From Thiomicrospira sp. (GTDB lineage: Bacteria > Pseudomonadota > Gammaproteobacteria > Thiomicrospirales > Thiomicrospiraceae), in the NCBI GenBank assembly GCA_030826915.1, contig JAUUDE010000066.1, positions 1-42,618 of the forward strand: DNA of 42,618 nt, given 5' to 3'. The notes under the pieces are model-generated. The model was not told the origin of the DNA. It searched no databases and saw nothing but the letters and a program-made list of their open reading frames with translations. The position numbers and the translations under genes were made by a program. Numbering within the stretch: the stretch's first letter is position 1; each line of letters begins with the position of its first letter. Shown here piece by piece: positions 158-42,139 of this stretch.

Positions 158-3103
158 TTATAGATTAATAATCTCAAACTGACTGTCTTTTAATGCCTCG
201 GCATTTTGACTGTTCGTTAAGACCGCTGAAGAAGTATTATCTGTGGTTAGATACTTGTCTGCCAATACTCTTAACTCGTCAATGGTTGTCGATATTACAC
301 CTTGTCGATATGCCATACGAATCGCATGTGTTCGGCCATATAAATCTTGATAAAAGGCTTTTTTCATTTCACCTGCCGGAGAACCAGGCTTATCCATAGC
401 ACTAATTACGTTTAGAATCGCTTCATCTACTTTTGCTTGCGTTGCATCTGCACTCATTAACCAGTCACGTGCGCGTTTAAAGTCATCGTAAGTTTCCATT
501 AAACGTGGATCACGGTATGAGTAGAATACAAAAGCGCTCGCTTCAGCATTGTAAGTGGCACCGCCACCATAAGCCCCGCCCTTTTCTCGAATGGCCGAGT
601 GCAAAAAGCCATTACGTAAACACGCACCTAAAACAGAGAGTTTAGGCGCATCTTCATGGTCTGACATAACTGCTGGATAAGCTAAAGCACAAAAGTTAAC
701 CTGTGTACTGGTAACCCAGGCCTGGTTAATCGGGGTTTGACTCGCTGCAAATTTAAATGCTTTGTGCTTCACATTTGATTCTATCGTTTTGCTCCAAACC
801 TCATTCATGGACTGCAATGCGGAATCCATACCAGATTCATCACTCACAACCAAAGCCTGCATATCTGACTGCTTCAACTTAGCTTGAATACTGCTTAATC
901 CTTCTGAGAACTGTTGCATCGCATCATCGTTAGATTGCAAATCTTCATGCAGTGTTTTGATGTATTGAATACCAGAAAAACCAGAACGTTCAAACTTCCA
1001 ACGAGCCGCAGGCGTATAACTTTGGGTTGCCGCCATCATGGCTAAACCATGGCCATTCCCAGTAATACCATGGTCCACTGACGCACGAATTTGTGAAACT
1101 AAGTCTTTTAAACGGTTCTTTTCATCAAAACGGGCTTCATTGAGTGTTTCGTTTAACAATTCAGCCATAGGTTTTTGATTACGGTTAAGTGCTTTAGAAG
1201 ACAAAATAAAATGGCTATGACACCCTTGTGGCTCACCTATTTTAGAATGCACACTTGAGCGCGCTGAGAGGCCCCCTGACACACTTGCTTGATGCGATTG
1301 CATTTCAATGTAATCACGCTGTTGTGTACCTACTTCCGTTAAACAGCTATTAAACAGCGGCATCAAAGCCTGTTCTTGTTCTGTTAATTCAGGCAATTCA
1401 ATAACCAGCTGTTCGTAAGTTAAACCATTGGTTCCACACTGATAACTTTGAACCGGCATATCAGCAATGTTAGTCTTATTCGCAGAATAACGCTTAATCT
1501 CAGCTGGGATATCATCCTTAGTCACTTCTGGCAGAATACTTGGATCATCTTCTTGAGATTGTCGCTCTTCTAAAGCTAGGGCTTGTTCAATAATCGCTTG
1601 TTTTTCAGCATCGGTTAACTGTGCTTGAATCGCCGCTAACTTATCTTTTTCAGCTTGCTCTTTTTTCGCTGATAATTCAGTATCTGGCTTCATGGTTAAA
1701 CGTACTCGGTGAGTGTTATTTAACAATAAGGATTTAACCAGGCCTGGTATAAAATCAGGTGATTTTACTTCGTTCTCTAATTGCTTAAGAGCCGCATCTG
1801 TGTCCAATAAAGCGATTGGATCACCATCATGCAAAGCACCTGCAAGCGAATGCAGAATAAGTTGTAACCCATAAGGATAACTATCACCACCGACTTCACG
1901 TTGCGAAAGTTCTAATTGATGCAACATCGCTTCAACTTGAGATTGTTCAACTCCCTCTTTAGCAATGCGCTCCAGTTCATTTAAAATCAAATCTTCAACC
2001 GCTTGTGCATGTTCTGGTTCTGATCCTTGAACCCCAACAACAAACGCCATCTCTTTATTTGATTCTTCAAAACCACACAGTGGCGATGGCGCATTGGCCA
2101 ACTCGGTTTCTTCCAATACTTTACGTAAAGGCGATGCACTGTTATCTAATAACACGGCCGAAAGCAGATGACCACGTAATACATTCAGAGGGTCTTGGTT
2201 CTGCCCTAACAACCAACCTAATACAATATGCGTTTTTGCTGAAACATCTTCTTCATCAAGCGCATAAGATTGCTCAACGGCTTTCGGTTCGTTATAGCGT
2301 TGCTCTAAACCAACACGAACCTTAGGTACAGTATCTTTGAAACGTTGCAAGCCTAAGCTTTCAAATTGTGCTTGATGTTCTGCGGCGGCGATATCACCAT
2401 AGGTCATAAACACGGCATTAGATGGATGATAGTGCAACTTGTGAAAATCCAGTAACTGTTGGTGAGTCAAATCTGGAATATCTTCAGGCTCTCCACCACT
2501 GTTATAGTGATAGGTAGTGGTTGGATAAAGTTCGGTAGTAAAGGCTTGCCACAGAGTAGAAACTGGCGAACTCATTGCCCCTTTCATCTCATTAAAGACC
2601 ACACCTTTGTAGGTTAGAGGAGAGTTAGAGTCGGTCTTATCCTCAAATTCAAATCGGTGACCTTCTTGAGCAAAATCCAAAGCGTCTAAATTGGGGAAAA
2701 ACACCGCATCCATATAAACCTGTAATAGGTTTTGAAAGTCTTTACGGTTTTCAGTGGCAAAAGGATATGCCGTCCAATCGCTAGAAGTAAAGGCATTCAT
2801 AAACGTGTTTAACGAACGGCGAATCATCATAAAAAACGGGTCACGCACTGGATACTTTTCACTACCACACAAAGTGGTATGTTCAAGAATGTGAGCCACT
2901 CCTGTCGAATCCATTGGTACGGTTCTTAAAGCGACCAAAAATACATTCTGTGAATCATCCGCAGCTAAATGATAGTGTGCGGCACCTGTGACTTTATGCT
3001 CATAGTGTTCAATGGTTAAATTCAGTGAATCAATGGCGTGTTCACCTTTAAATTCAAAGGCTGGATGGGTCGATTTATTCATGACTGATTGATTTTTACT
3101 CAT
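158..3103 (-). CDS. PreP-like M16C zinc metalloprotease (insulinase family)
   Basis: This 981-residue protein is an M16C metalloprotease of the presequence-protease (PreP/Cym1) type, which degrades unstructured peptides inside a closed two-half chamber. The inverted zinc motif HxxEH is His71-Ile-Leu-Glu74-His75. The distal zinc-ligand Glu is Glu172 in NEMKG, 97 residues later, as in PreP proteins. The C-terminal half carries the EKGGAYGGGATY segment typical of the family's Arg/Tyr substrate-binding region. The length matches the family (about 970-1000). There is no signal peptide, so it should be cytoplasmic, probably recycling peptides. It is monocistronic: pnp upstream ends with its own terminator and another terminator follows this gene. 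A 19-base inverted repeat (3122-3140) lies just upstream of its start codon. Confidence 0.93.
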   Translation of the reverse strand: MSKNQSVMNKSTHPAFEFKGEHAIDSLNLTIEHYEHKVTGAAHYHLAADDSQNVFLVALRTVPMDSTGVAHILEHTTLCGSEKYPVRDPFFMMIRRSLNTFMNAFTSSDWTAYPFATENRKDFQNLLQVYMDAVFFPNLDALDFAQEGHRFEFEDKTDSNSPLTYKGVVFNEMKGAMSSPVSTLWQAFTTELYPTTTYHYNSGGEPEDIPDLTHQQLLDFHKLHYHPSNAVFMTYGDIAAAEHQAQFESLGLQRFKDTVPKVRVGLEQRYNEPKAVEQSYALDEEDVSAKTHIVLGWLLGQNQDPLNVLRGHLLSAVLLDNSASPLRKVLEETELANAPSPLCGFEESNKEMAFVVGVQGSEPEHAQAVEDLILNELERIAKEGVEQSQVEAMLHQLELSQREVGGDSYPYGLQLILHSLAGALHDGDPIALLDTDAALKQLENEVKSPDFIPGLVKSLLLNNTHRVRLTMKPDTELSAKKEQAEKDKLAAIQAQLTDAEKQAIIEQALALEERQSQEDDPSILPEVTKDDIPAEIKRYSANKTNIADMPVQSYQCGTNGLTYEQLVIELPELTEQEQALMPLFNSCLTEVGTQQRDYIEMQSHQASVSGGLSARSSVHSKIGEPQGCHSHFILSSKALNRNQKPMAELLNETLNEARFDEKNRLKDLVSQIRASVDHGITGNGHGLAMMAATQSYTPAARWKFERSGFSGIQYIKTLHEDLQSNDDAMQQFSEGLSSIQAKLKQSDMQALVVSDESGMDSALQSMNEVWSKTIESNVKHKAFKFAASQTPINQAWVTSTQVNFCALAYPAVMSDHEDAPKLSVLGACLRNGFLHSAIREKGGAYGGGATYNAEASAFVFYSYRDPRLMETYDDFKRARDWLMSADATQAKVDEAILNVISAMDKPGSPAGEMKKAFYQDLYGRTHAIRMAYRQGVISTTIDELRVLADKYLTTDNTSSAVLTNSQNAEALKDSQFEIINL
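1737..1748. repeat. Perfect copy of the 12-bp palindrome ACCAGGCCTGGT inside the protease gene
   Basis: A perfect copy of the dispersed palindrome. Here it encodes Pro-Gly-Leu-Val, whereas the copy at 717-724 in the same gene is read in another frame as Gln-Ala-Trp. Protein sequence therefore does not explain it. Confidence 0.85.
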
Positions 3104-3121
3104 AGGTTTTCCGTTGTGTTC

Positions 3122-3140
3122 ATGCTGAAATATTCAGCAT
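3122..3140. repeat. Short perfect inverted repeat upstream of the protease gene
   Basis: ATGCTGAA and TTCAGCAT are separated by three bases, ending about 18 bases upstream of the protease ATG on its minus-strand leader. It could be a 5' UTR hairpin or a dimeric repressor site. The sequence alone does not decide, and no known regulator is recognised. Confidence 0.5.
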
Positions 3141-3171
3141 AAAAAGAGAAGTTACTCTGATCATAAAAGAC

Positions 3172-3200
3172 AAAAAAGGCCACTAACAGCGACCTTTTTA
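3172..3200 (-). terminator. Rho-independent terminator of pnp
   Basis: On the minus strand AAAAAGG-UCGC pairs with GUGG-CCUUUUUU around a short loop, using two G-U pairs, and ends in six U. It lies 25 bases after the pnp stop codon. Confidence 0.75.
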
Positions 3201-3224
3201 TGCAGTAAGCTTAAGTGAATAGCA

Positions 3225-5540: not shown

Positions 5541-5813
5541 TACTTAGTCGACTCTGAATAACTACTTTAAAATTATGTGGGACGTTTAAGTAGGTAGGCT
5601 CTAGGCGTGGATCGCAGGTAAGGGGTGTTCCTTAGCAAGATTCACAACAACGAGGATGCCTGCTTAAACGCCCACCCGAAGGGGCTGCGCCAGTTTACCC
5701 TCAACTGCGTTAGAATTTCTTATGTTATCTAGATAGCACTTCAAAATTCTGCCTTGTTGAGGAAAATCTGGCTTTGCCATAATTTAAAGGAGTTATTCAG
5801 AGTCGACTACTTA
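5541..5813. mobile_element. MITE-like 261-bp element, copy A, with 6-bp target duplication
   Basis: The element runs from 5547 to 5807 and is bounded by the direct repeat TACTTA (5541-5546 and 5808-5813). Its ends are perfect inverted repeats: GTCGACTCTGAATAACT is repeated inverted at 5791-5807. Inside are two long arms. One pairs 5577-5594 with 5659-5675 and encloses a small hairpin. The other pairs 5683-5705 with 5756-5778 and encloses AGAATTT/AAATTCT (5712-5718/5744-5750). There is no ORF of its own, so any transposition must use an enzyme supplied elsewhere. Copy B at 23572-23832 is nearly identical and has a different target duplication. Confidence 0.8.
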
Positions 5814-5836
5814 ACTTCTGCTGATTTTCACTAGGC

Positions 5837-5906: not shown

Positions 5907-6173
5907 TTACTTACGTAGACCTAGACGCTTGATAAGTGCTAAATATCTTTCACCATCTTTCTTATGTACGTAATCTAAAAGCTTACGACGACGGCTAACA
6001 AGACGAAGAAGACCAGTACGAGAATGGTTGTCTTGCTTGTGCTCTTTAAAATGCTCAGTAAGGTATTTGATACGTGCAGTTAAAAGTGCAACTTGAACTT
6101 CCGGTGAACCAGTGTCACCTTCTTTAGTTGCATATTCTGCAACGATTTTAGCTTTAGCTTCTGCGTTAAACAT
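5907..6173 (-). CDS. rpsO: 30S ribosomal protein S15
   Basis: S15 is an early-binding protein of the 30S platform that binds the three-way junction in the 16S rRNA central domain. The 88-residue length is the family norm. The conserved segments are present: [36 protein letters not shown] and [11 protein letters not shown]. The initiator ATG at 6173 is preceded by a GGAG-type site. A strong promoter sits about 75 bases upstream and a terminator follows, so rpsO is probably an independent transcript with partial read-through to pnp. Confidence 0.98.
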
Positions 6174-7170: not shown

Positions 7171-8016
7171 TTAAAGCTTTTGGGCAATAAATGAGGCAAC
7201 AGGCCGACCATCTTTTAATTTGTCTATTCTATCAACAATTATGTCAAATCCAGAAAAAACTTCTGCCAGTTCATTGTTGTTTAATATAAAGTTTGGATTT
7301 TTAGGTGAGCCAAACGCTTCAACACCTTCTATAAAGGTTTGAAACAGTAAAAAACCGCCTGAATTTAAACTGTGTTTAATATAAGAAAACATATCTCGAT
7401 TTAAAAAACGCACAACCGTGATTAAATCAAAACTTTGATAGGGTAAACAATTCTCTTTTTTTATATCGCAACACTTAAACTTTATTGATGTTCCAGACAG
7501 AGCTGCTAAGGATTTTGCACGTTTTAAAACTTTTGGCTCATGATCAATCGCCGTAACATTCATACGATTTTTGGCTAGAAAAATCGCATCTCGTCCACCG
7601 CCACAACCAATATCTAATACAGCAGGCCTGGTATTATCAACAGGAAAAGCAATGTGTTTTTTATTTAATAACTCAACAAACTCTTGCACTAAAAAGCTTG
7701 GTTTCCAGAGTATTTTAGACTTATTTCCCTCTTCTACCAGGCCTGGTAGCTGCTGCGACCAATTTTGCATATCTGTTGGGCTATTAATCACTAAAGATCC
7801 TGAAACTTCATAGCCTTTTGTATCCAAAAGTAGGCTTGCCGCTTCAATTTCATCTTTTTTACCGACTAAATATAATTGGGCTGGAGCCGCTGGTAAAGCG
7901 TTGAGGCTTTGTGGAAGATTCTCCCAGCTTAACCAGGTTGCGTCTTTTAAATGGCCTAATTTATAGTCACTTAAAGATCGCAAATCTAAGATACCATCTG
8001 CTTTAGCAAAGACCAT
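7171..8016 (-). CDS. Rhodanese-like/SAM-dependent methyltransferase fusion
   Basis: Residues 1-70 look like a rhodanese fold (DLRSLSDYKLGHLKDATWLS) and residues 105-281 like a class I methyltransferase of the TehB/methyltransf_11 kind. Motif I is VLDIGCGGG (133-141) and the following acidic residue is in VTAIDHE. The rhodanese active-site loop, where a CRxG-type Cys is expected, reads YLVGKK, so this domain has no sulfurtransferase cysteine and is probably a binding module. The start codon overlaps the truB stop as TAATG, indicating translational coupling. Two CAGGCCTG palindromes lie in the gene. The substrate is unknown; the operon position hints at a link to RNA or translation, but that is inference. 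Confidence 0.82.
   Translation of the reverse strand: MVFAKADGILDLRSLSDYKLGHLKDATWLSWENLPQSLNALPAAPAQLYLVGKKDEIEAASLLLDTKGYEVSGSLVINSPTDMQNWSQQLPGLVEEGNKSKILWKPSFLVQEFVELLNKKHIAFPVDNTRPAVLDIGCGGGRDAIFLAKNRMNVTAIDHEPKVLKRAKSLAALSGTSIKFKCCDIKKENCLPYQSFDLITVVRFLNRDMFSYIKHSLNSGGFLLFQTFIEGVEAFGSPKNPNFILNNNELAEVFSGFDIIVDRIDKLKDGRPVASFIAQKL
7734..7749. repeat. Extended 16-bp palindrome of the CAGGCCTG family
   Basis: CTACCAGGCCTGGTAG is a perfect 16-base palindrome within the methyltransferase gene, where it encodes part of Gln-Leu-Pro-Gly-Leu-Val-Glu. It extends the 12-bp consensus symmetrically on both sides. Confidence 0.85.
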
Positions 8017-8927
8017 TAACCCGCTTCACTTTCAGGCAGGTTAAAAACACGCTTGGGTTTAAGTAGGTTTTTCTCGGCTTGCCACTCGCCTACCGCAATG
8101 CAAATATCGTTTTCATAAAAACGAACTAAATCGGTTTGCGGCTTAGGCTGTTCTAGTTTACCTCCATGACGAATCAAATCAGCTTGTTCGGATGTTAAGT
8201 CAATACGTTCTAAGTGTTGAATGGCAATATCCAAAGGGTGAATACAATCATCTAGCTGTTGTTCAATCTCTTCAAAAGTCAGCATATCATCACCCAACAG
8301 ACTGCCAGTTTGTGTACGATGTAAAGCAGTTAAATGCCCAACTGTACCTAAAGCTTTGGCAATATCCTCCCCTAAAGTACGAACGTAAGTACCTTTGGAG
8401 CTATGAACATCAAAAACGATTTGGTTATCGGTAAATGAAACCAGCGATAATGCCAATATTTTGATTGGACGAGCGGGACGTTCGATTTCAATGCCTTGCC
8501 TAGCATAATAATACAGCGGTTTGCCTTGGTGCTTCAAAGCAGAATACATTGGCGGAACTTGTTCTATATCGCCAACAAACTGTTGCAAGACCTTATTGAT
8601 TGAAGCTTCTGATAGCTCAGGAATGGGAAGTGTCTGAATAATCTCACCTTCAGTGTCACCCGTATCCGATTGTTCGCCTAATTTTAATGTGGCCGTATAT
8701 CGTTTGTCTGACTCTAGCAACAGGCCTGAAACTTTGGTTGCTTCACCCAAACAAATAGGAAGCAATCCGGTTGCAAAAGGGTCTAAAGCCCCTGTATGCC
8801 CGCCTTTTTTAGCATTAAAGGCTCTAAGAACTTGTTGTAAGATTCCATTGGATGAAACCCCTGCTGGCTTATTTAAAAGCACAATACCATTTACCACTCG
8901 TTTAGGTGGTCTACAAACTTGACTCAT
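8016..8927 (-). CDS. truB: tRNA pseudouridine(55) synthase
   Basis: TruB makes the universal pseudouridine at position 55 of the tRNA T-loop. The 303-residue protein has the family N-terminus (GIVLLNKPAGVSSNGIL) and the catalytic loop GHTGALDPFATGLLP, with Asp49 as the nucleophile. The later KGTYVRTLGEDIA and TGSLLGDDMLTFEEI motifs and a small C-terminal PUA-like region are also present. Its ATG directly follows the rbfA TAA with no gap, and its own stop overlaps the next gene's start. The block rbfA-truB-methyltransferase is therefore tightly coupled. Confidence 0.97.
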   Translation of the reverse strand: MSQVCRPPKRVVNGIVLLNKPAGVSSNGILQQVLRAFNAKKGGHTGALDPFATGLLPICLGEATKVSGLLLESDKRYTATLKLGEQSDTGDTEGEIIQTLPIPELSEASINKVLQQFVGDIEQVPPMYSALKHQGKPLYYYARQGIEIERPARPIKILALSLVSFTDNQIVFDVHSSKGTYVRTLGEDIAKALGTVGHLTALHRTQTGSLLGDDMLTFEEIEQQLDDCIHPLDIAIQHLERIDLTSEQADLIRHGGKLEQPKPQTDLVRFYENDICIAVGEWQAEKNLLKPKRVFNLPESEAG

Positions 8928-9420: not shown

Positions 9421-9440
9421 AGCTACCAGGCCTGGTAGCT
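9421..9440. repeat. Perfect 20-bp palindrome of the CAGGCCTG family, hairpin after infB
   Basis: AGCTACCAGGCCTGGTAGCT is a perfect 20-base palindrome 30 bases after the infB stop, flanked by AAA and TTTA. As RNA it would fold into a stable stem with a short loop, followed on the minus strand by TTTTAAC. It is the longest member of the dispersed palindrome family and may have been recruited as a terminator or 3'-end stabiliser. Confidence 0.85.
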
Positions 9441-14835: not shown

Positions 14836-16513
14836 CCATGTAACGCAAAATGGTGTTCAATACGTTTTTTAAAGTCATCCACCACGGCAAAACTTTGTTT
14901 CAATATATCTTGTTGCATATGGCTCAACTTCGATAATTGAATCTTATTGTCTGGCACATCACACCCTCCTGCTAATTGCAGGAGCATGGATTCTAACCTT
15001 AAAGTATTTAAGAAATTCAACGTCTCTCCAAGCTCTATGCCAAATTCTTTATCCAAAACACTTTTATCCATTAAAGCTTTAATTCGCCAATGAGTATTGG
15101 TTTTGGAGATTCCTGATTCTAAAGCGTAACAACGAATTCCATGCACAATAGTAAAGATTCCACCTTTTTTAATATCTATTACCTCATGCCCTGATTCAGA
15201 CTCTACGAGCAAACCACCAAAGAAACCAACAGGGGTTTTGAATTTAAGCGCTACAACGGCAAAATGGCGTAAAAAACTAGGGTATTTTTCTTTTTCCATT
15301 TCTAATGCTTGCTTCATTTCATTCAACCAGGCCTGTTGACCGAACACCACCTCAGCATCAAACAAAATAGAAGCATTCATAAAATTCTCATCTGAAGGAT
15401 GAGCGAACCAATCATGAATTTTCTTTAAAAATCTGTTTGACTCATTCGCCATTCTGAGTTGGAAAGCATGATATTTCCAGGACAAGGCGGAAAGCCTATT
15501 TGCTGTAATGTTTCTACGAACTTCGCAGAAAATTCTGTTAATTCTACTTGTTGTTGCTCATTCAATTCATCAGAATAAATCAAAGCATTATCTTGGTCAG
15601 TTCTAATGACTTGCTCAGAGCGCCCTTCACTTCCCATAACAAAAATACAAACCTTGTCTACCAAATGCGGCGGTAGCAAAAAACCAACTAATTTATTAAT
15701 CATCTTACGATGCAACTCATTAACCAGTTTGGCAATGTAATGTGTTTTTATTCCTTTACGATTTAAGTTTTGGATGAGCTGGTCAATCTGTGGACCTATC
15801 TGAATTAAATCCTCAATATTTTCCGCTTTATCCACATTAATTAAGACTAAACCAGACTGGTTGGCAAACAAACTCATAAGATCTTTTTGATGTAAGAGAC
15901 CTATTAAGCCATCATCACCGCGAACAACCAAGCGATCAATTTGAAAGCGGGTCATTTTCAATAAAGCATTAAACAGATAATCAAACTCATGAACTGTGTA
16001 GATAGGTTTGCTTGCCAATTCTGATACGTTAATGGCAACACCACCTGAAAAATCTTCATGGCTAGCTATATATTTCATAACATCGGTTGAGGTTAATATG
16101 CCAACAGACTCATCCGCAAAATTTACAAGGCAAGCATCCGTTCTTCCAGCCACCATTTGTTGAACGGCCTGTTGCACAGTAGCATCTTGATTCACCGCCA
16201 CATAAGGATGAACTGGTGCAGAACAGACAGTATCCATCATGACCTCTGTAGAAGTTGCCGTTTGAATGGATTCATGAATTCGGTTCAATTTTTCAACAAT
16301 GGAAGAATTAAAAAACTGAACAAACTCGTTAATTTGTTGTGCCGCTTTCAAAAAAAGTTGGGCAGTAAGTTTATATGCAATGGCCTCTTCCTGAACTTCA
16401 TAATAGGTTGTACTTTCTGTTTTACCTAAAATTTCAGCATCACCAAAAAAATCGCGCATACTATGACGAGAAACCACTTCGTTATCTTGAATCTCAGCTA
16501 CTCGCCCTTTAGA
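14826..16513 (-). pseudogene. N-truncated, frameshifted cNMP-CBS-DUF294 nucleotidyltransferase-like gene
   Basis: Two overlapping frames together encode one protein. The first (open from 16513, GTG at 16477) has the tail end of a cNMP-binding domain (SRHSMRDFFGDAEILG), two CBS motifs and a DUF294 nucleotidyltransferase core (GSEGRSEQVIRTDQDNAL). It stops at 15425 after MSQTDF. The second (to 14826) continues with LKKIHDWFAHPSDENFMNASILFD, the DUF294 C-terminal domain. Reading one base back in the T5 run at 15427-15431 joins them smoothly, so one base seems to be missing. The first half of the cNMP domain is absent, since the acs stop lies only about 50 bases upstream. Programmed frameshifting or an assembly error in the homopolymer are alternatives for the break, but not for the truncation. 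Confidence 0.75.
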
Positions 16514-16563: not shown

Positions 16564-18516
16564 TTATTTTTTCTTTTGAAATTGATCTAATATACTTGGA
16601 TCTTCAAGAGTTGAAGTATCTTGAGTAATTTCTTCGCCTTTAGCGATGGTTCTTAATAAACGACGCATGATTTTACCTGAGCGAGTTTTTGGTAAATTTG
16701 TTCCAAAACGAATATCGTCAGGCTTGGCAATAGGACCAATTTCTTTAGCAACGTGTTCACGTAATTCAGCAATTAATGCATTACGTGCATCGCCTTTAGG
16801 AATATCAATATTTAGAACTACAAAAGCGGCAACCGCTTCACCTTTCACATCATGTGGACGTCCAACAACGGCCGCTTCTGCAACAGACTGATGAGAAACT
16901 AAAGCAGATTCAATTTCCATTGTTCCCAAACGGTGACCTGAAACATTCAAGACATCGTCTACACGCCCAAGAATCCAGAAATACCCATCTTGGTCTTGGT
17001 AAGCGCTGTCACCAACAACATAATAAGAAATGTCTTCTAATGGGAAATAGGTGCTTTTGTAACGTTCATCATCGCCCCAAACTGTTCGAATCATCGAAGG
17101 CCAGGGTTTTTTAATAACCAACAATCCACCTTGACCTCGTTCAAGTTCATTACCTTGTTCATCTAAGATTGCTGCCTCAATACCTGGAAGCGGTTGAGTA
17201 CATGACCCTGGCTTCAATGGCGTAATAGGGAATGGAGCAATCATGTGCGCACCCGTTTCAGTTTGCCACCAAGTATCAATAATTGGACATTCACCTCTTC
17301 CAATTACCTCGTGATACCACATCCAAGCTTCTGGATTGATTGGCTCACCTACCGTTCCAAGCAAACGTAACTTAGACAAATCATATTGATTCGGTAAATC
17401 AGCACCAAATTTCATTAATGCGCGAATTGCGGTTGGTGCAGTATAGAAAACAGTCACGCCATGATCTTGGCAAATTTGCCAAAAACGTCCTGCATCTGGA
17501 TAGGTTGGCACACCTTCAAACATAAGCATTGTTGCACCAACAGACAAGGGTCCGTATGCAACATAAGTATGACCGGTAATCCAGCCTACATCGGCTGTAC
17601 ACCAAAACACATCGGTATCATTTAAATCAAACATCCACTCATTGGTAAGATGGGCGTTTAATAAATAACCACCTGTACTGTGTTGAACACCTTTAGGTTT
17701 TCCTGTTGAACCTGATGTATAAAGTAAGAATAGAGGGTGTTCGGCATTAACAGCAACTGGATCATGGTAATTACTCATTCCCGCTTCTGCTTCTAGCCAA
17801 TCAATATCGCGCCCTTCTTTCATAGTCACTTCATCGTCTGTGCGACGATAAACAATCACTTTCTTGACATGGTCACAGCCTTTTTCAAGAGCCGCATCAA
17901 CCGCTGCTTTTAAAGGCACAGTTTTACCACCTCTGCGACTACCATTAGTTGTAATGACTAACTTAGCACTTGCATTCTCAATACGGTCACGTAACGCTTC
18001 GGCAGAAAAGCCGCCAAATACTACAGAGTGAATTGCACCAATACGTGCACAGGCCTGCATAGCAATAACAGCTTGTGGAATCATTGGCATATAGATAATG
18101 ACACGATCACCCTTTTCTACGCCTTGCGCAGTTAACGTATTGGCAAAACGGCAAACTTGATCATGTAACTCTTTATAAGAATAGGTTTCTACATCACCCT
18201 GATCGCCTTCAAAGATAATGGCGGCCTTATCACTTTTGGTTTCTAAGTGACGGTCAATACAGTTATATGAGACGTTCAGTTCACCATCGGTAAACCATTT
18301 ATAGAAAGGGGCGTTAGATTCATCCAAACCAACAGTGAAAGGTTTGGTCCAGCTTAATTTCTCTTTTGCTAAATCAGACCAAAAGCCAACATGATCGTCA
18401 CCTGCCTTAGCGCGCATTTCTGCCAACTTTTCTTCGCTGATAGCCACGCTATTTTTTATTTTATCGGTTGGTTCAAATAAACGGGTTTCGGTTAAGATCG
18501 ATTCAATGTTAGACAT
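16564..18516 (-). CDS. acs: Acetyl-CoA synthetase (AMP-forming)
   Basis: Acs activates acetate to acetyl-AMP and then acetyl-CoA. The 650-residue protein is full length and has the ANL-family motifs: the P-loop-like [12 protein letters not shown], the [10 protein letters not shown] region, [20 protein letters not shown] at the hinge, and [14 protein letters not shown] with Lys615 equivalent to the acetylated regulatory Lys609 of enteric Acs. It sits upstream of the broken CBS/DUF294 and exonuclease genes. The acetate symporter genes that often lie in this cluster are not found here. Inverted repeats at 18603-18616 and 18648-18687 in the upstream gap could be operator sites. Confidence 0.97.
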
Positions 18517-23571: not shown

Positions 23572-23838
23572 GTCGACTCTGAATAACGACTTTAAAAATA
23601 TGTGGGACGTTTAAGTACGAAGGCTCTAGGCGTGGATGCAGGTAAGGGTTGTTTCCTTACCAAGATTCACAATAACGAGAATGCCTGCTTAAACGCCCAC
23701 CCGAAGGGGTTGCGCCAGCTTCCCCACAACTGCGTTAGAATTTCTTATGTTATCTAGATAGCACTTCAAAATTCTGCCTTGTTGAGGAAAAGCTGGCTTT
23801 GCCATAATTTAAAGGATTTATTGAGAGTCGACTAAATA
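23566..23838. mobile_element. MITE-like 261-bp element, copy B, with 6-bp target duplication
   Basis: The element runs from 23572 to 23832 with GTCGACTCT... at the left and an inverted ...GAGAGTCGAC at the right. It is flanked by the direct repeat TAAATA (23566-23571 and 23833-23838). It has the same length as copy A and is nearly identical to it. The small hairpin GGTAAGG-gttgttt-CCTTACC is perfect here but carries a mismatch in copy A. The right end lies 30 bases from the aat start codon, so aat transcription must start in or beside it. Confidence 0.8.
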
Positions 23839-23850
23839 AAATAAAGACCT

Positions 23851-26393: not shown

Positions 26394-28631
26394 TCATTCT
26401 GTTTTAAAGGTTAAAGTATCATCTTCGCAATCAACAAATACTTCTCCACCCTGCTGTAAGTCACCAAACAGTAACTTTTCTGCAAGTGGTTGCTTGACCT
26501 TTTCTTGAATCAATCGTTCCATAGGCCTTGCCCCCATTAAAGGGTCGTAACCTTTTTTAGCTAACCAAGCACGAGCCGCATCACTGATTTTCAAGCTGAC
26601 CTTTTTATCACCTAGTGCATTTTCTAACGCATAGATAAACTTATTCACTACAGAACCCATAGAATCCTCAGAAAGACGGTTAAACTGAATCACACCATCT
26701 AATCGGTTTCTAAATTCAGGCGTAAAGACTTTCTTTAGTTCGGCATCAAAGTCCATTGTATGATCCTGCACAGCGAAGCCCATACTACTGCGAGCCATCT
26801 GTTCAGCACCTACGTTTGATGTCATGATGAGAGTAATATTTCTAAAGTCCGCTTTACGGCCATTATTATCCGTAAGCGTTCCATGATCCATTACCTGCAA
26901 TAGGATATTAAAGACATCAGGATGGGCTTTTTCAATTTCATCCAATAACACAACCGAATGCGGATTTTTTGTAACCGCTTCAGTTAACAGGCCACCCTGA
27001 TCATAACCAACATAACCTGGAGGCGCACCAATTAACCGTGATACAGTATGGCGTTCCATATACTCAGACATATCAAAACGCAGCATCTCAACACCCATAT
27101 GGTTCGCCAACTGCTGACTTAATTCTGTTTTACCGACACCTGTCGGCCCAGCAAATAGGAATGAGGCTGTCGGTTTATTTGGATTATTTAACCCTGATCG
27201 TGCTAAATGAATAGCGGATGTCAGCTGTTCCACTGCATGATCTTGGCCAAACACAACCCGTTTTAGGTTAGCTTCTAAATCAAACAGTTTATCTTTCTCT
27301 TTTTGAGTAATTTGAGAAACAGGAATACGTGCAATGCTGGCAACTACTTGCTGAATCTCATGAACACCAATCTGTTTTTTACGTTTGCTTGCTACTGCTA
27401 AAGCTTGTTTTGCACCCGCTTCATCAATGATGTCAATCGCCTTATCAGGCAAATGGCGTTCGGTTAAATAGCGAGCAGACAGAGCAACCGCTTCTTTTAA
27501 TGCCGGCAACGTATACTTCACATTATGATGCTCTTCGTATTTAGGTTTTAACCCTTTAAGAATGGCAAAACTCTCTTGATGACTTGGTTCTTTGACATCT
27601 ACTTTTTGGAAACGACGCGCCAAAGCACGATCCTTTTCAAAAATACCACGGTACTCTTCATAGGTGGTTGCACCAACACAACGTAGCAGGCCTGATGACA
27701 ATGATGGTTTCATTAAATTAGATGCATCCATAGCACCACCTTGAACCGCTCCTGCACCTATCACAGTATGAATTTCATCTATAAATAAAATGGCATGAGA
27801 CTCGGCTTCTAATGCTTTCAATAAAGCCTTAAAACGTTTTTCAAAATCGCCACGGTAACGTGTACCAGCTAGTAAAGCCCCCATATCTAGGCTATATACC
27901 ACCGCATCTAGAAGTGATTCAGGTACTTTTTGATGTACAATTTGATAAGCAAGTCCTTCTGCAACGGCTGTTTTACCAACCCCAGGTTCACCCACTAATA
28001 ATGGATTATTTTTACGGCGACGACTTAGTACCTCTAAAGTACGATTCAACTCCCACTCTCGACCAATGATTGGATCGATATTACCGTCAATAACCGACTG
28101 GTTAAGATTGGTTGTAAAGCTTTCAAGCGGCGATTTTTTTGACTGCTCTTGCCCTTCTAATTGCGCTTCGTCACTATCACTTGTTGCAGGAAGATAATCA
28201 TCACTTTCTGCCGCCGTAACTCCGTGAGAAAGAAAACTTAACACATCAACTCTCTCTACCCCATGACTCTCTAACAAGTAAACGGCTTGCGAATCTTGTT
28301 CTGCATATAATGAAGCCAATACATGAACTGCGGTTACTTCAGGATAACCATTAGACTGAACCAAATAAATGGCTCGCTCAATCACACGTTGAAAACTCAT
28401 GGTTGGCTGCAATTCATCTGGCTTACGTGAGACCATTTCAGACTCTAAAAACTTCTCTAGCCCTTCTTCAATCGCAACAACATCAGCACCACAAGCAGTA
28501 ATGACCTCTTGAACAGCTGGTACCCCCAATAACTCTAGTAATAGATGCTCTAAGGTAACAAATTCGTGTTCATACTCATGCGCCACACTAAATGCATTGC
28601 TGAGAGTCATTTGTAATTCTTTGCTTAACAT
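26394..28631 (-). CDS. clpA: ATP-dependent Clp protease ATPase subunit ClpA
   Basis: ClpA unfolds substrates and feeds them to ClpP. From the ATG at 28631 it has 745 residues. A TTG nine codons earlier would lengthen it, but [14 protein letters not shown] is the normal ClpA N-terminus and AAAGGG lies before this ATG. The chain holds a repeated N-domain (1-140) that binds ClpS, AAA+ module 1 with GEPGVGKTA and AAA+ module 2 with GPTGVGKTE. The ClpP-binding loop is MGF instead of the common IGL/F. It follows clpS by 19 bases in the same operon. Confidence 0.97.
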
Positions 28632-33742: not shown

Positions 33743-34276
33743 CTAAATTAGAGTAATCCAAGATACCTCGCAATCACCTTTCTCAGTAGTTACAAAAGCA
33801 GAATCTCCTGTAATAGTAACAGACATATCTGTTGTTCTACCTACCAGGCCTGCTAGGTCTTGAATTTGATTATTATCAAATCTATAAAACTCACTGTTTT
33901 TCAGTGCATTCAATTTCTCTTTACTTTGTGCCCACCAAACATCTGCTTTGCTATTAAAGCTATATACTTTAACAGAACGGGCTAAATGACTCGCTTTCTT
34001 TAATCGATCAAAAGCAGGTTCACCAATATCAATCCATAACATCAGCTGGTCATCCAATGTACGAACCCAGATATCCGGTTCTTCAATGGCACTTAAGCCT
34101 TTAGTAAAATCTAAAAATTCTTGCGAGTTCAAACAATAGGCCAAAACTCGAGCCATCATACGTTCAAGGTTTTCTGATGGATGCATCGCCACGGTTAAAT
34201 TGAAATTATCGTAAACATCTCGATTCATATCAGAAAGAGAGGTACGAAATTTATAAATAGTTGGTTTTAGTGCCAC
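33743..34276 (-). CDS. YaeQ family protein
   Basis: The 177-residue protein matches the YaeQ family from end to end: MALKPTIYKFRTSLSDMNRDVYDNF at the N-terminus, HPSENLERMMARVLAYCLN, EPDIWVRTLDDQLMLWIDIGEPAFDRLKKAS, and a C-terminal WITLI. The fold is related to restriction endonuclease-like PD-(D/E)XK proteins, with Asp and Glu residues in the EPDIW and DIGEP segments. An early report linked YaeQ to RfaH suppression; the role remains unclear. A CAGGCCTG palindrome lies in its 3' part and another between it and mnmH. Confidence 0.93.
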   Translation of the reverse strand: MALKPTIYKFRTSLSDMNRDVYDNFNLTVAMHPSENLERMMARVLAYCLNSQEFLDFTKGLSAIEEPDIWVRTLDDQLMLWIDIGEPAFDRLKKASHLARSVKVYSFNSKADVWWAQSKEKLNALKNSEFYRFDNNQIQDLAGLVGRTTDMSVTITGDSAFVTTEKGDCEVSWITLI

Positions 34277-34422
34277 TAGTGAACGCCTTGTTTCATAGGT
34301 GAATAGATTGAGATTAAAATAGAAATGTTTATAAAATCCTTTTCTAAAAATTAAGCAGATTCTAACGTAATACTTTAATTACCAGGCCTGCTAACTTATT
34401 CAATTTTTTTTGAAAAGTTTTA

Positions 34423-35553
34423 TTATTGTCTTGGCTGTAAGTACTCAACCACTTCATCAATTGAACCCGTAAAAGCGACCTTATGCTGATTCTTTTGCAT
34501 TTGATAGTCATACATTGGGTCATAATATTCCGTTAATAGTATTTCTATCCAGGCCTGGTGAGGTTCGGTAGAACCCGTTAATAACTGTTGTTGCATAGCA
34601 GCATCGAACGCTTGCATAACACGCTTATGACGTTCACCACCTAAACGTTTTTTAATACGCTCAAAAGCCGCTCGCATAAACTCTGTCCAAGCATCAATAT
34701 TTGTATACTCCTGTTGTGCTTCAATCACATATTCATCTAAGGTAATGTCTATTCGTTTTTGCAATGGCGTATCAACGATTACACGCTCACCGCTTTTTAA
34801 GCAGTCAAATAGCGGTTTTGAAAAATTTACCGAACCAATATTACGCCCTTCATCCTCAATAATTAACTGATTAGGTTGGGTTTCCATAAAACGAATCAAA
34901 GCCATAGCCAGATTATTTTCAAAGTTAATTTGCGTTGGTTGTGGTGTAGCATGGCGTCCAAATGCGGAGCCACGGTGATGAGCTAACCCCTCTAAATCAA
35001 TGGCATTTTGTAGCTTGTGAATCGCCAAGGTTTTTCCTGAACCTGTTCGCCCTCCTAGTACAATTGGTTTAATGTTTTTTTTCTCTAACAACTCAGGGAA
35101 AAAATCCAAATAATTAATTAAATATCGTCTAAAAGACTTATAACCACCTTTTAAACGCACAATATTTATACCGCTTTCTTTTAACCATTGCTGAGATATT
35201 TTAGAACGCATCCCACCTCTAAAACAGTACAACAAAGCACTTGGATTTTCGTCCATAAAAGCCGCCCAAGATGCAACCCTTGGAGCACGAGTAATATCGT
35301 TAACTAACTGATGTCCTAACTTTACTGCCGCCTCATTACCGTGTTGCTTATAACACAAACCCACCTTTTGACGCTCATCATCGTTCATTAACGGCAAGTT
35401 AATCGCTGAAGGGAATGCACCCTGAGAGAACTCAACTGGCGCACGTACATCAATCAATGGAATCTGATTTAAAACAATCGATTTAAAATCGTCTGTTTGT
35501 GGTAAATCATTGGGAAATTGAGTAATTTCTACTGGGCTAGAGTTTAGCGACAT
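34423..35553 (-). CDS. mnmH: tRNA 2-selenouridine synthase
   Basis: MnmH (SelU/YbbB) replaces sulfur with selenium in the wobble 2-thiouridine of some tRNAs, using selenophosphate. The 376-residue protein has the rhodanese domain with catalytic Cys110 in LLYCFRGGMRSK and the conserved upstream GLCYKQHG. A P-loop domain GGRTGSGKT (167-175) follows. Its start overlaps the selD stop as TAATG, so the selenium donor and user are translationally coupled. No selA or selB is in the window, so selenium use here may be limited to tRNA, which is inference from one locus. Confidence 0.96.
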   Translation of the reverse strand: MSLNSSPVEITQFPNDLPQTDDFKSIVLNQIPLIDVRAPVEFSQGAFPSAINLPLMNDDERQKVGLCYKQHGNEAAVKLGHQLVNDITRAPRVASWAAFMDENPSALLYCFRGGMRSKISQQWLKESGINIVRLKGGYKSFRRYLINYLDFFPELLEKKNIKPIVLGGRTGSGKTLAIHKLQNAIDLEGLAHHRGSAFGRHATPQPTQINFENNLAMALIRFMETQPNQLIIEDEGRNIGSVNFSKPLFDCLKSGERVIVDTPLQKRIDITLDEYVIEAQQEYTNIDAWTEFMRAAFERIKKRLGGERHKRVMQAFDAAMQQQLLTGSTEPHQAWIEILLTEYYDPMYDYQMQKNQHKVAFTGSIDEVVEYLQPRQ

Positions 35554-36740: not shown

Positions 36741-37550
36741 TTAGCCTGCTTGCATCTTTAATATCTCTGCGACATCAATTGACTCAGCATAACGGGTAAA
36801 TTTGGTTTCTTTCTCTGCAATAGCAATCATCGACATACGATCAGCTAATTCATTGCCTTCTACACCAACATGGCCATTAACATGCAAAATTTTTAGCTTA
36901 TCTTTTATTTGTTGGTGTAGTGCAAACATCTCTTTAATGAGCTCTAGGTTTTTAATCTCACCACCAGCTTTTTTCCAACCTTTCTTTTGCCAACCAATTG
37001 CCCATTGTGTAATACACTGAATGGAATATTTTGAGTCACAAAAAATCACCACTGAGTTGTCCTTATTCAGCTCTATTTGAGCCATCATTAACGCTTGGTG
37101 TAAGGCATTCAACTCCGCTGTGTTATTGGTGCCCATTGGGTTATATAAGCCATACCAAAGCTCGGCAATTTCTTCATTGCGATACACCGCCATGCCTGAA
37201 CCTGCTTCACCTGGGTTTGGATCGCAACCGCCATCTGTATAAATTTTAACGTTTACCGCCATCTTGGCTATCTCTGCAGCGGTATAGGTTTTAATGGTAT
37301 TGGGCTTAATGGTATTGGGTTTTGCAGTCGATTTGCTCGTGGCTGTATTCATAGTTTTTTGAGCAGGCCTGCTCTTTTTAGCGGTAGATGCACCATGAGA
37401 GCCAACAAAGGCTTGTTCTGCTTCTGCCAAGCTTGAAAATGACTTGTATTTTGCGCCCGCAAATTTATCCACCTGCTTTTTACAGCTATTCCAATCAGTA
37501 TAAATTCCAGGCTCTCTACCCTGCCAAACCACATAAAACTTTTTTGCCAT
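36741..37550 (-). CDS. rnhA: Ribonuclease HI with N-terminal viroplasmin/hybrid-binding domain
   Basis: The 269-residue enzyme cuts RNA in RNA-DNA hybrids. Residues 1-50 (KKFYVVWQGREPGIYTDWNSCKKQVDKFAGAKYKSF) are a caulimovirus viroplasmin-like hybrid-binding domain, as in eukaryotic RNase H1. A Lys/Thr/Pro linker (about 55-100) carries the tandem KPNTIKPNTIK. The catalytic domain has the four acidic residues in YTDGGCDPNPG, NNTAELNAL, FCDSKYS and GNELADRMS, plus HVNGHVG. It differs from the 155-residue E. coli type. A CAGGCCTG copy, extended to the 14-base palindrome GAGCAGGCCTGCTC, lies in the linker region. Confidence 0.94.
   Translation of the reverse strand: MAKKFYVVWQGREPGIYTDWNSCKKQVDKFAGAKYKSFSSLAEAEQAFVGSHGASTAKKSRPAQKTMNTATSKSTAKPNTIKPNTIKTYTAAEIAKMAVNVKIYTDGGCDPNPGEAGSGMAVYRNEEIAELWYGLYNPMGTNNTAELNALHQALMMAQIELNKDNSVVIFCDSKYSIQCITQWAIGWQKKGWKKAGGEIKNLELIKEMFALHQQIKDKLKILHVNGHVGVEGNELADRMSMIAIAEKETKFTRYAESIDVAEILKMQAG
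37289..37322. repeat. Short tandem repeat in the RNase HI linker
   Basis: A 15-base unit (AATGGTATTGGGCTT/TTT) occurs twice in a row and encodes the repeated Lys-Pro-Asn-Thr-Ile. In-frame expansion or contraction here would change linker length between the hybrid-binding and catalytic domains. Confidence 0.7.
37361..37374. repeat. 14-bp palindrome of the CAGGCCTG family
   Basis: GAGCAGGCCTGCTC is a perfect palindrome. It shows that the flanks can change while staying symmetric (GC/GC instead of CC/GG). Confidence 0.8.
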
Positions 37551-37590: not shown

Positions 37591-38448
37591 TTAATCTTGC
37601 TGTTCCGCTTCTCGCAATCGCTGTTGACGAAATTGCTCGGCTTCTAACGCGGCTTTAATCTCTTCCATCACCGAATCCACATCGGCTTGTTTTTCAATCT
37701 CATCATACAGGCCTGTTAACTCAATATCGGCACTTAGCTCACCTGCTTCAAACAGCGCCCAAATCTCTTTTGCATATTGCGTCTGTTTTAGCTCGGGCGC
37801 AAATTGTGCATAATAATTGGTGATATTATCAATATCGCGTGTCAGCATACGTTTAGAGTTATTATTGGCGGCGGCATCTACCGCTTGCGGTAAATCGATG
37901 ACTACAGGGCCATAATCGTCCACCAATACATTAAATTCCGATAAATCTCCGTGAATCAACCCTACGGATAACATCAACATAATATTGTGCATCATCTCAG
38001 CATGGTCTTCACGAGCTTGTTCTGCAGACATGCCCACATCATTCAAACGTGGGGCAACATCACCCAGCTCATCGGTAATTAACTCCATTAACAGCACACC
38101 GTCAAAACAGCCATAAGGTTCTGGCACTCGCACCCCAGCCGCAGCTAGTTTATATAGGGCATCCACCTCGGCATTTTGCCAAACCTCTTCTTGCTGTTGG
38201 CGACCAAACTTTGACCCTTTTTGCATGGCACGAGCTCGGCGGCTATTACGAACCTTACGCCCCTCTTGATATTCCACCGCTTTTTTAAAACTGCGTTTAC
38301 TGGCCTCTTTATACACCTTGGCACAGCGAATCTCATCGTCACAACGCACAATAAAAACATCAGCTTCTTTACCGCTCATCAGACGACGAAGCACATCATC
38401 AACAAGACCATCTTCAACCAAAGGTAGAATTCGTTTAGGGATTTTCAT
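37591..38448 (-). CDS. RIO1-like serine protein kinase (PA4780 type)
   Basis: The 285-residue protein is an atypical kinase of the RIO family in its bacterial form. Visible motifs are the nucleotide-binding GKEADVF, the Lys in CAKVYKEA, the catalytic loop LIHGDLSEFNVLV (Asp and Asn), and the metal-binding VVIDLPQAVDAAANNNSKRML. The C-terminal 50 residues form an acidic coiled-coil-like tail. Archaeal and eukaryotic RIO kinases act in ribosome maturation; the bacterial targets are not known. It is likely a single gene, convergent with nothing and about 40 bases upstream of rnhA. Confidence 0.93.
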   Translation of the reverse strand: MKIPKRILPLVEDGLVDDVLRRLMSGKEADVFIVRCDDEIRCAKVYKEASKRSFKKAVEYQEGRKVRNSRRARAMQKGSKFGRQQQEEVWQNAEVDALYKLAAAGVRVPEPYGCFDGVLLMELITDELGDVAPRLNDVGMSAEQAREDHAEMMHNIMLMLSVGLIHGDLSEFNVLVDDYGPVVIDLPQAVDAAANNNSKRMLTRDIDNITNYYAQFAPELKQTQYAKEIWALFEAGELSADIELTGLYDEIEKQADVDSVMEEIKAALEAEQFRQQRLREAEQQD

Positions 38449-38600: not shown

Positions 38601-39398
38601 TTAATTTTTAAAAAGGGGATCTTGTTTATAAAACAAAGCCAACTGCTGATACACTTTTGGGTAAACACGATTTAAGCGCTGTGGCGTTTCAAAAAAATAT
38701 TCAGTAGATACTGCAAAAAACTCGGCAGGATTTGTTGCCGCATAAGAATTAATAAGCGTAACTCTGCCTTTATCAATTTGCTTATTTAGGTGTTTAAAAG
38801 CCTCTTCAAATGCGTTAAACCAGGCCTGTTCATTCATATTTTTGTGCAATGGCGGGTGTCCGTTGGTATAGCCATCCAACATATCCAATTTATGCGCCAT
38901 TTCATGTAATAACACCTGATTTGCATGAACTCTTAACGGATGCGGCTGGTCATCCTGCCAGTCAACAATAATACCGCCTTGATATTGCGTTTCTCCCGAC
39001 TCTACACCAGCCCAACTTACCAAAAAGCCATCTGTACTCAGCAAATTTTCTCGGCCATTGTGAAATGGTGCAGGGTAAACAATGATTTGGTTCCAATTAC
39101 GTAACCAATCTAAAGACAAATCATTTTCAACCGATTCAAAGCCAAACACCAAAATCGCCGCTTGTGTGGCGATGGTAATGCGGATTTCATCTGTCAAAAT
39201 CATACCCTTAGCAGGCACAATCGTTTTCACTCGTAAAATCTCGCCAGCCAACAAACGAATACGCATTCGTTCGCTTGAAGTATAACGTTGCATAAGTGGC
39301 ATTTTAGCCGTAATTTGATGCCAAATTTTAAGCGGAATCTTGCTCTGCTTTAGACAGTGTCTTAATATTAAATGCCTAGCGGTTTTAACAAGCTGCAT
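38601..39398 (-). CDS. MtfA-like zinc peptidase (M90)
   Basis: The 265-residue protein has the zinc motif HEMAH (His165, Glu166, His169) followed by KLDMLDGYTNGHPPL, and a downstream NPAEFFAVSTEYFFE that should give the third ligand. This is the arrangement of E. coli MtfA, which binds the glucose-system repressor Mlc and shows aminopeptidase activity. Whether an Mlc partner exists here is unknown. The N-terminal helices carry basic residues and no signal peptide, so it is cytoplasmic. It follows the FAD dehydrogenase gene by 23 bases and is probably cotranscribed with it. Confidence 0.9.
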   Translation of the reverse strand: MQLVKTARHLILRHCLKQSKIPLKIWHQITAKMPLMQRYTSSERMRIRLLAGEILRVKTIVPAKGMILTDEIRITIATQAAILVFGFESVENDLSLDWLRNWNQIIVYPAPFHNGRENLLSTDGFLVSWAGVESGETQYQGGIIVDWQDDQPHPLRVHANQVLLHEMAHKLDMLDGYTNGHPPLHKNMNEQAWFNAFEEAFKHLNKQIDKGRVTLINSYAATNPAEFFAVSTEYFFETPQRLNRVYPKVYQQLALFYKQDPLFKN

Positions 39399-41584: not shown

Positions 41585-41645
41585 TATAACCACCTTGATT
41601 CAACTAGCTAGAACTAACGTGGTTTAACCATTTCAAAACAAAGTT

Positions 41646-41657
41646 ACCAGGCCTGGT
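41646..41657. repeat. Perfect ACCAGGCCTGGT palindrome between fdxA and the Nif11-type gene
   Basis: An intergenic copy of the dispersed palindrome, 63 bases after fdxA. A copy without any coding role supports a DNA- or RNA-level function. Confidence 0.85.
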
Positions 41658-41776
41658 TGTTTTAATTTTCACACCACTTTACACTTCTTTTATAACGGAA
41701 CAACCGAATTACCTTGCTATCTATATGCGGTTTCCTGTCTAATACGCCCTAAACAGTATAAATAGGAATAAAAATC

Positions 41777-41992
41777 ATGGCTTTAGATCAACTTAGAGAG
41801 TTTTTACAAAAAATGCAGTCTGAACCAGAACTAAAACAACAAGTGTTGGCTCAAGCTACAGCAGATGATGTTGCTCGTATTGGACTCAAGCTAGGTTATG
41901 AATTTTCTGGTGATGAATTATTAAGAATGACAGGTCAAAAAGTCGGAAAAGTAACCGTAAATAAAGTCGCCACCCCTGGTGAGTACAATTAA
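41777..41992 (+). CDS. Nif11-domain small protein
   Basis: The 71-residue protein starts MALDQLREFLQKMQSEPELKQQVLAQATADDVARIGLKLGYEFSGDELLRM, which fits the Nif11 domain found in small proteins near nitrogen-fixation genes and in leader peptides of some modified natural products. The tail (TGQKVGKVTVNKVATPGEYN) has no Cys and only a few Ser/Thr, and no GG cleavage motif is present, so a peptide-product precursor is unlikely. An AGGAATA site precedes the ATG. It lies 192 bases after fdxA in the same direction, and cotranscription is possible. Function unknown. Confidence 0.75.
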   Translation: MALDQLREFLQKMQSEPELKQQVLAQATADDVARIGLKLGYEFSGDELLRMTGQKVGKVTVNKVATPGEYN

Positions 41993-42127
41993 TAGCGTTT
42001 CACACCGCTGTTTGTAAATAAAGATATAGGAACGATAGACCCGATATTTTCCTATATCTGATATATCTTGAATAAAACTAATTCGCTCAATCTAGGCTTA
42101 AATTTCCCTGCCAACAACCTTAAACTA

Positions 42128-42139
42128 ACCAGGCCTGGT
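42128..42139. repeat. Perfect ACCAGGCCTGGT palindrome downstream of the Nif11-type gene
   Basis: A second intergenic perfect copy, immediately left of the REP-like repeats. Confidence 0.85.

Follow-up and report, generated by a model that had tools for sequence, protein, structure and literature searches.

A palindromic octamer iterated in genomes of the Thiomicrospiraceae as the candidate core of a self-DNA uptake signal

The 42,618-nt contig of Thiomicrospira sp. analyzed here (JAUUDE010000066.1 of assembly GCA_030826915.1; the whole contig is hereafter called the window) carries 19 exact copies of the palindromic octamer CAGGCCTG, which forms the core of a longer dyad and is highly iterated in its own genome and in many other genomes of the Thiomicrospiraceae, a family of sulfur-oxidizing bacteria. 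By analogy with the uptake signals of other bacteria, we consider it probable (roughly 0.6) that this dyad serves as a self-DNA uptake signal, an unusual one in that most of its dialects are palindromes. With slightly less confidence, yet on the favorable side of even odds, we propose that the family carries a third independent lineage of self-DNA uptake signals, in which the signal is mostly a 24-bp palindrome and the core shifts between symmetric and asymmetric forms within one genus; no uptake sequence would before this have been palindromic or have come from free-living chemolithoautotrophs.

Results

Abundance in the window, the genome and the family

A preliminary description of the window had reported the 19 copies and put their expected number at about 0.25. 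All 19 were recovered at the same coordinates (Table 1), and 100 dinucleotide shuffles of the window averaged 0.25 copies, none having more than 2. Among window 8-mers with at least 8 copies, CAGGCCTG had the highest ratio of observed to expected copies (19 vs the 0.72 predicted by an order-3 Markov model). It was also the commonest 8-bp palindrome, the runners-up having 8 copies. As had also been described, five of the 19 copies are enclosed in the 12-mer ACCAGGCCTGGT, four are intergenic, and the open reading frames (ORFs) of pnp, infB and nusA contain no copy. The other 15 copies lie inside ORFs, and the alignable coding sites represent all three codon phases. Gene names here are readings of the ORF translations alone, made without a family search.

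The genome-wide count that had been suggested as a check gave 655 copies in the genome of the window (G000; 1.79 Mb in 99 contigs, 86% complete), as compared with a single copy of the reversed control. Among 62 genomes of the family, drawn from a larger group, 32 were CAGGCCTG-rich (236–1173 copies), and the counts were strongly bimodal. The window's own genus contributed 15 rich genomes out of 32, its own included (236–1173 copies), the other 17 having 3–74. All nine genomes of genus g5 (840–1128), seven of the 11 of g6 (479–962; the remaining four had 9–18) and the single genome of g3 (409) were likewise rich. No rich genome was found in g2 (four genomes, 0–21 copies), g4 (one genome, 10 copies) or g28 (four genomes, 35–67 copies, with controls of 7–31). 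Since CAGGCCTG is found in four genera, the motif may well be ancestral, with several later losses. Such numbers, hundreds to thousands of perfect copies in each genome, are a trait of the DNA uptake sequence (DUS) and the uptake signal sequence (USS); with the exception of G020 and G004, described below, the genomes also display the trait of the highly iterated palindrome HIP1, namely an iterated palindromic octamer. The literature matches listed, whose coverage mostly leaves out subscription papers, held no account of a CAGGCCTG repeat or of uptake sequences in the Thiomicrospiraceae.

Shape and consensus strength of the motif

CAGGCCTG is the core of a dyad of about 24 bp with the consensus ACCAGGCCTGGTnRAwTT and its mirror. 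When both sides of each site were pooled, the sites of G018, G030 and G009 read CAGGCCTG-G-T-n-R-a-T-T and those of G023 read CCGGCCGG-T-A-A-A-w-T-T-T, both reaching background by about +9. In all four genomes the flank has the order A then T (R8-a9-T10-T11), and GGCC together with the outer A8, T10 and T11, counted from the center, is shared by the CAGGCCTG and G023 dialects. In G020 the A-tract stands on one side only. A flanking AT-rich tract, which is a trait of USS, is a feature of this motif, although in G035 it is weak or absent. The scores of the two flanks were positively correlated in G018, G030 and G009, with correlations near zero in G035 and G023, so that a single site is not confined to one of its sides.

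The consensus is strong. Seven CAGGCCTG genomes, pooled, contained 290 perfect sites vs 6.8 expected, and 221 sites one mismatch away (one-off) vs 170 expected under an order-3 model with perfect sites masked (193 under order 2). The corresponding figures for G023 were 180 perfect sites and 59 one-off sites, the latter vs 41 expected.

Dialects and losses

G023 carries 1025 copies of the decamer ACCGGCCGGT (control, 1), and the other 36 genomes searched have at most 20 each; the search covered 24 genomes of the genus, G023 among them, together with 13 relatives from the class, without G024–G031 and the other genera of the family. G020, which in a DnaE tree is sister to the CAGGCCTG-rich G005 and G017, is CAGGCCTG-poor and carries the asymmetric motif AAAAAACTCAACAGGCCGGGT. 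The asymmetric 12-mer AACAGGCCGGGT occurs 482 times in G020 and 275 times in G004, and no more than 8 times in any of the 56 further genomes covered. G005 and G017 lean to GAACAGGCCTGTTC, with a T adjoining the core in 20 of 36 half-sites of G005 and in 10 of 22 of G017, so that the left half of the G020 motif resembles the half-site of its sister species. The form in G035 (g5) is A[C/G]CAGGCCTG[G/C]T.

No such motif was seen in samples of 40–140 kb from G003, G013, G019, G024, G010, G012, G026 and G031. The smaller samples of other CAGGCCTG-poor genomes were too small to judge motif absence, and the 20 kb sampled from G076 (g6), mostly repeats, say nothing on the dialect there; no sample exceeded the 400 kb taken from G023 (14%). 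On the DnaE tree, the distribution of any dialect (13 rows) vs none (9 rows) requires at least four changes, as judged from one gene and with several weak branches.

Other repeated sequences were encountered in these surveys. G-runs of 8–10 (GGGGGGGGA) were over-represented in the CAGGCCTG-poor genomes G029 (L181–L182), G016 (L169–L170), G011 and G028, present in as many as 15 of the roughly 33 1-kb bins of G029, and the k-mer counts of G019 (L111–L114) were dominated by a repeat with GCCGCCAAGGCAGCTAAGAAA-like units.

Conservation of sites and depletion in acquired DNA

The neighborhood of the window is largely syntenic in the ten relatives compared. In codon alignments, sites of one motif-rich genome recurred in another more often than 8-mers matched for phase, composition and residues in most pairs. 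Sites were kept from G014 to G015 in 5 of 5 cases (0.5 expected), from G000 to G015 in 5 of 11 (1.2) and from G000 to G018 in 3 of 10 (0.6); sharing was slight or nil from G000 to G017 (1 of 6; 0.6 expected), from G005 to G009 (0 of 3) and from G017 to G005 (0 of 2). These pairs are not independent, and only ungapped positions were used, gapped ones being dropped. CAGGCCTG-poor relatives keep almost none of the sites of G000 (G003, 0 of 10; G013, 1 of 8; G020, 1 of 10). The preliminary description had argued that codon or protein bias does not explain the motif, and this argument stands, because motif-poor relatives keep the residues and rarely the octamer. Considering that most sites survive the ungapped filter, the alignments point to an origin of sites by substitution rather than insertion.

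The motif is moderately depleted in acquired DNA. At 21 methylase loci of motif-rich genomes, 18 copies were counted vs 28.0 expected (p 0.03, overlaps counted once); weak or duplicate hits of rich genomes, e.g., L100, L143, L145, L151, L152, L324 and L325, were left out of this count. A 20-kb stretch of the 97-kb second contig of G018, which looks plasmid-like from a reading of its own proteins, had 3 copies vs about 9 expected. Separately, an apparent enrichment at the ComEC loci of 22 rich genomes (58 copies vs 30.2 expected) was set aside, since one-off octamers are richer there too.

Placement, strand, spacing and hairpins

Most sites are in coding DNA, taken here as those ORFs of 100 aa or longer that a simple script predicted. 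Noncoding DNA nonetheless holds a disproportionate share: 36% of sites on 12–16% of bases in G018, G030 and G023 (p 2e-5 to 6e-17), 28% on 11% in G009 and 50% on 12% in G033 (14 sites). The noncoding density is 3 to 4 times the coding density in G018, G030, G009 and G023. The preference, a trait of DUS and USS, was significant in these four genomes and in G033, and not significant in G036 (p 0.09), in G035 or in the window alone. Intergenic densities pooled over six genomes were 2.5 per kb between convergent genes, 1.2 between tandem genes and 0.7 between divergent genes (35, 72 and 19 sites, respectively; p 7e-5), an order from which G009 departs. This order, highest between convergent genes, argues against promoter elements.

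The asymmetric dialect showed no orientation bias, as is the case for DUS and USS: AACAGGCCGGGT was divided 242/240 between the strands of G020 and 137/138 between those of G004, and the first 23 matches listed on one contig were divided 12 and 11. The question does not apply to the palindromes. Inverted pairs 22–26 bp apart occur in the asymmetric dialect, once in 80 kb of G020, with further pairs among the matches listed for G020 and G004. One such pair, when folded, formed a terminator-like hairpin (-37 kcal/mol, z -7.9), so that terminator-associated inverted pairs, a DUS/USS trait, are seen in the asymmetric dialect, on the evidence of this one folded pair. Of the palindromic sites in the window, that at 9427 forms a hairpin between infB and rbfA (z -3.2), and that at 42130 folds no better than its own shuffles. 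The pooled spacing of sites departed slightly from random in the direction of evenness (variance/mean 0.83, p 0.03), chiefly because of G023; the effect is weak, computed from rounded values, and without support in G009 and G035 (variance/mean above 1).

Searches for methylases, competence genes and pilins

The presence of a methylase, which the preliminary description had named as a further check, was not borne out for the families searched. PF00145, PF01555 and PF02086 had no match in G014, G017, G021, G025, G027 and G033 (all motif-rich and at least 99% complete), in G023 or in the window's own genome (86% complete); other methylase families were not searched. The same three families matched in 10, 11 and 4 of 14 control genomes, respectively. 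Within the genus, strong PF00145 matches were found in 7 of 15 rich vs 8 of 17 poor genomes, one weak match being left out, and none of the families was linked to the motif over 58 genomes each (one set for PF00145 and PF01555, an overlapping but different set for PF02086). A cognate DNA methyltransferase, the companion trait of HIP1, was thus not found with these three families in the six rich genomes and G023.

ComEC, the one competence gene included in the search, was detected in 54 of 58 family genomes, with and without the motif. Its near-universal presence permits competence and does not show it.

Sites in the window

Table 1. Copies of CAGGCCTG in the window
Positions	Strand	Sequence	Location and sharing
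717..724	.	CAGGCCTG	M16-peptidase-like ORF (158-3103 -); same octamer also in G020
1739..1746	.	CAGGCCTG in full 12-mer ACCAGGCCTGGT	M16-peptidase-like ORF, PGL codons; also in G018
7623..7630	.	CAGGCCTG	rhodanese/methyltransferase-like ORF (7171-8016 -)
7738..7745	.	CAGGCCTG, full 12-mer	rhodanese/methyltransferase-like ORF (7171-8016 -), PGL codons; common to 5 aligned relatives
8721..8728	.	CAGGCCTG	truB-like ORF
9427..9434	.	CAGGCCTG, full 12-mer, within longer perfect palindrome AAAGCTACCAGGCCTGGTAGCTTT	infB/rbfA intergenic; hairpin then UUUU, minus strand
15328..15335	.	CAGGCCTG	DUF294-C-like ORF (14826-15485 -)
18050..18057	.	CAGGCCTG	acs-like ORF (acetyl-CoA synthetase); also in G005 and G013
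20285..20292	.	CAGGCCTG	dnaE, AGL codons; common to G015
21620..21627	.	CAGGCCTG	dnaE, AGL of DVETAGLVKFDF; 8 of the 11 motif-rich orthologues in the DnaE set, its own among them, have the site
27687..27694	.	CAGGCCTG	clpA-like ORF
33845..33852	.	CAGGCCTG	yaeQ-like ORF; common to 4 relatives
34383..34390	.	CAGGCCTG	intergenic, yaeQ/mnmH
34550..34557	.	CAGGCCTG	mnmH-like ORF, QAW codons; common to 3 relatives
37364..37371	.	CAGGCCTG	rnhA-like ORF
37708..37715	.	CAGGCCTG	RIO-kinase-like ORF
38821..38828	.	CAGGCCTG	mtfA-like ORF
41648..41655	.	CAGGCCTG, full 12-mer	intergenic, downstream of ferredoxin ORF
42130..42137	.	CAGGCCTG, full 12-mer	intergenic

The window also contains a dispersed intergenic repeat of about 270 bp in two copies that are 94% identical (5545–5814 and 23570–23839). 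The edges of this repeat are AGTCGACT octamers, of which the window has 5 vs 0.24 expected. An ordinary ribosomal S15 leader (RF00114, 6120–6238, minus strand; 40.3 bits, gathering score 39.5) spans the start and the upstream region of an 88-aa rpsO-like ORF (5907–6173, minus strand).

Discussion

The preliminary description had likened the octamer to HIP1 or to a palindromic uptake or recognition motif. The likeness to HIP1 holds for palindromy and genome-wide density and does not extend to the methyltransferase, for which the three families searched gave no match in six motif-rich genomes and G023. The analogy with uptake signals is supported by the dialects of sister species, one of them asymmetric and with an A-tract, by the noncoding preference, the small number of one-off copies, the A-then-T flanks and the inverted pairs. 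The lack of strand bias in the asymmetric dialect, the retention of sites between motif-rich relatives and the lower density in acquired DNA speak for it as well. In the portions of the literature available to us, uptake sequences are characterized by a strong consensus, noncoding preference, no orientation bias, AT flanks (USS), types or dialects, and inverted pairs (DUS) (PMC1626085, PMC3630211). Redfield and colleagues describe the Haemophilus USS as having an unusually strong consensus, with flanks that start with As and end with Ts, and the DUS as being without a flanking AT motif (PMC1626085, in part). An uptake signal would explain the strong consensus of the motif, its accumulation where genes allow, its dialects and losses, and the inverted pairs.

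Under the mechanism that we propose, the machinery of natural transformation would include a surface receptor, presumably one of the minor type IV pilins, that binds and prefers DNA with the motif. Biased uptake of kin DNA followed by recombination would then spread copies that arose by point mutation wherever genes tolerate them, and the cause of accumulation would be molecular drive. If the specificity of the receptor were to drift, the genome would follow over time and dialects would result; if it were lost, the copies would decay. Since ComN, a FimT-like minor pilin, has been proposed as the USS receptor by Helsem and colleagues (PMC12616744, in the portion available), minor pilins remain the place to look.

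Several observations weigh against an uptake signal. G035 has no noncoding preference (9% of sites on 9% of bases), and its flanks scarcely reach past +2. G033 (20 vs 14) and G036 (35 vs 11) have more one-off than perfect copies, as do the small samples of G002 and G006. The density peak between convergent genes and the palindromic form of most dialects are unlike known DUS and USS, which, as far as the available part of PMC1939737 goes, are neither palindromes nor biased to the downstream side of genes, and the motif density of about 0.3–0.45 per kb is below the figure of roughly 1 per kb given for them. ComEC does not separate motif-bearing from motif-less genomes, and G004 bears the asymmetric dialect without a ComEC match in its 520-contig assembly. 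Finally, PF12019 (FimT/GspH-like pilins) was borderline in 3 of 25 genomes, with matches just above the cut-off in G010, G026 and G019 (L328–L330), where the motif was not seen; other pilin families were not searched.

Other explanations were weighed against the same data. The dyad could be the site of an intracellular chromosome-organizing or DNA-repair protein that binds as a dimer and is kept by selection for a structural role. The symmetric 24-bp footprint, the positively correlated flank scores of G018, G030 and G009 and the slightly even overall spacing (though not that of G009 and G035) would suit such a protein, but about 1000 sites, each selected as essential, are hard to fit with a small one-off excess, with the wholesale switch of dialect in single species, with the disappearance of the motif from several lineages in which no replacement was seen, and with an asymmetric dialect; we regard this explanation as unlikely. 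We hold still less probable a methylation site of the HIP1 kind, in which, following Elhai's model, an orphan methyltransferase modifies the palindrome and methyl-directed repair creates and maintains the copies. A GC-rich octameric palindrome with symmetric extension, a similar order of density and replacement by another palindrome in a relative are all as reported for HIPs (PMC4390886, in part), and the same source, in the portion available, found a predicted cognate methyltransferase in every HIP-bearing genome. Because six of the motif-rich genomes, along with G023, had no match to the three families (type I, IIG and III families were not searched), a methylase fits poorly; methylases in other rich genomes occur at about the rate of poor genomes, and the non-palindromic dialect of G020 and G004 speaks against an enzyme that acts only on palindromes.

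The remaining two explanations appear very improbable. In one, the motif would be a by-product of terminators or a small mobile repeat spread by copying, similar to repetitive extragenic palindromic (REP) elements. It would account for the hairpins of one inverted pair and of site 9427 and for the pooled density peak between convergent genes, but not for the location of most sites in coding sequence, where the aligned ones occupy all three phases in mostly ungapped codon alignments, or for site 42130, which lacks a better-than-shuffled fold. Around the sites, similarity has dropped to background once the distance from the core exceeds about 9 bp. The trait of REP elements and bacterial interspersed mosaic elements (BIMEs), namely intergenic copies that arise by copying, was not found, most sites being coding and mostly ungapped against orthologues. 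In the other, CAGGCCTG would be a Chi-like recombination hotspot read by RecBCD or AddAB, as its GC content, octameric length, genome-wide over-representation and species specificity would allow. A Chi role is unlikely, given the long structured double-strand flanks, the noncoding preference and the asymmetric dialect, which lacks strand bias both genome-wide and among the first 23 matches listed on one contig.

The uptake-signal interpretation bears on a general question. In the available text of a survey on terminator-associated uptake signals, the Pasteurellaceae and Neisseriaceae are the sole families named (PMC13020248). If, as such sources indicate, uptake signals are known from these two families only, did they arise by a rare accident, or does transformation produce them repeatedly? 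If our interpretation is true, an environmental family with some cultured members, in which the motif is variously abundant, lost or switched in dialect, provides a third replicate, and the palindromic G005 and G017 set beside their asymmetric sister G020 provide a natural experiment on change of receptor specificity. If the motif is not an uptake signal, an iterated motif without a detected m5C, m4C/beta or D12 methylase would still be an exception to the association of HIPs with methylases.

Among known systems, the motif resembles the USS of Haemophilus and other Pasteurellaceae in its GC-rich core followed by an A-then-T tract, its few one-off copies, noncoding preference and lack of orientation bias, the occurrence of two types in subclades and its loss in some species (PMC1626085, in part). 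It differs in an unrelated core sequence, in that most dialects are palindromes with tracts on both sides, and in a density about a third to a half that of USS; uptake, which is established for USS, is here proposed by analogy. With the DUS of the Neisseriaceae it shares the presence of several related over-represented sequences in related species and the terminator-associated inverted pairs (PMC3630211, in part), whereas here the core itself changes symmetry, and a ComP-like receptor was not identified in the PF12019 search of 25 genomes, which did not extend to other pilin families. Like HIP1 and the alternate HIPs of cyanobacteria, it is an iterated GC-rich palindrome with symmetric extension, replaced by other palindromes in some relatives (PMC4390886, in part). 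Unlike HIP1, it occurs in six rich genomes in which three methyltransferase families were not found, and one of its dialects is asymmetric. Chi sites are species-specific, over-represented, GC-rich octamers, as is the motif described here; unlike Chi, the motif has structured double-strand flanks, is palindromic or unbiased in orientation, and prefers noncoding DNA.

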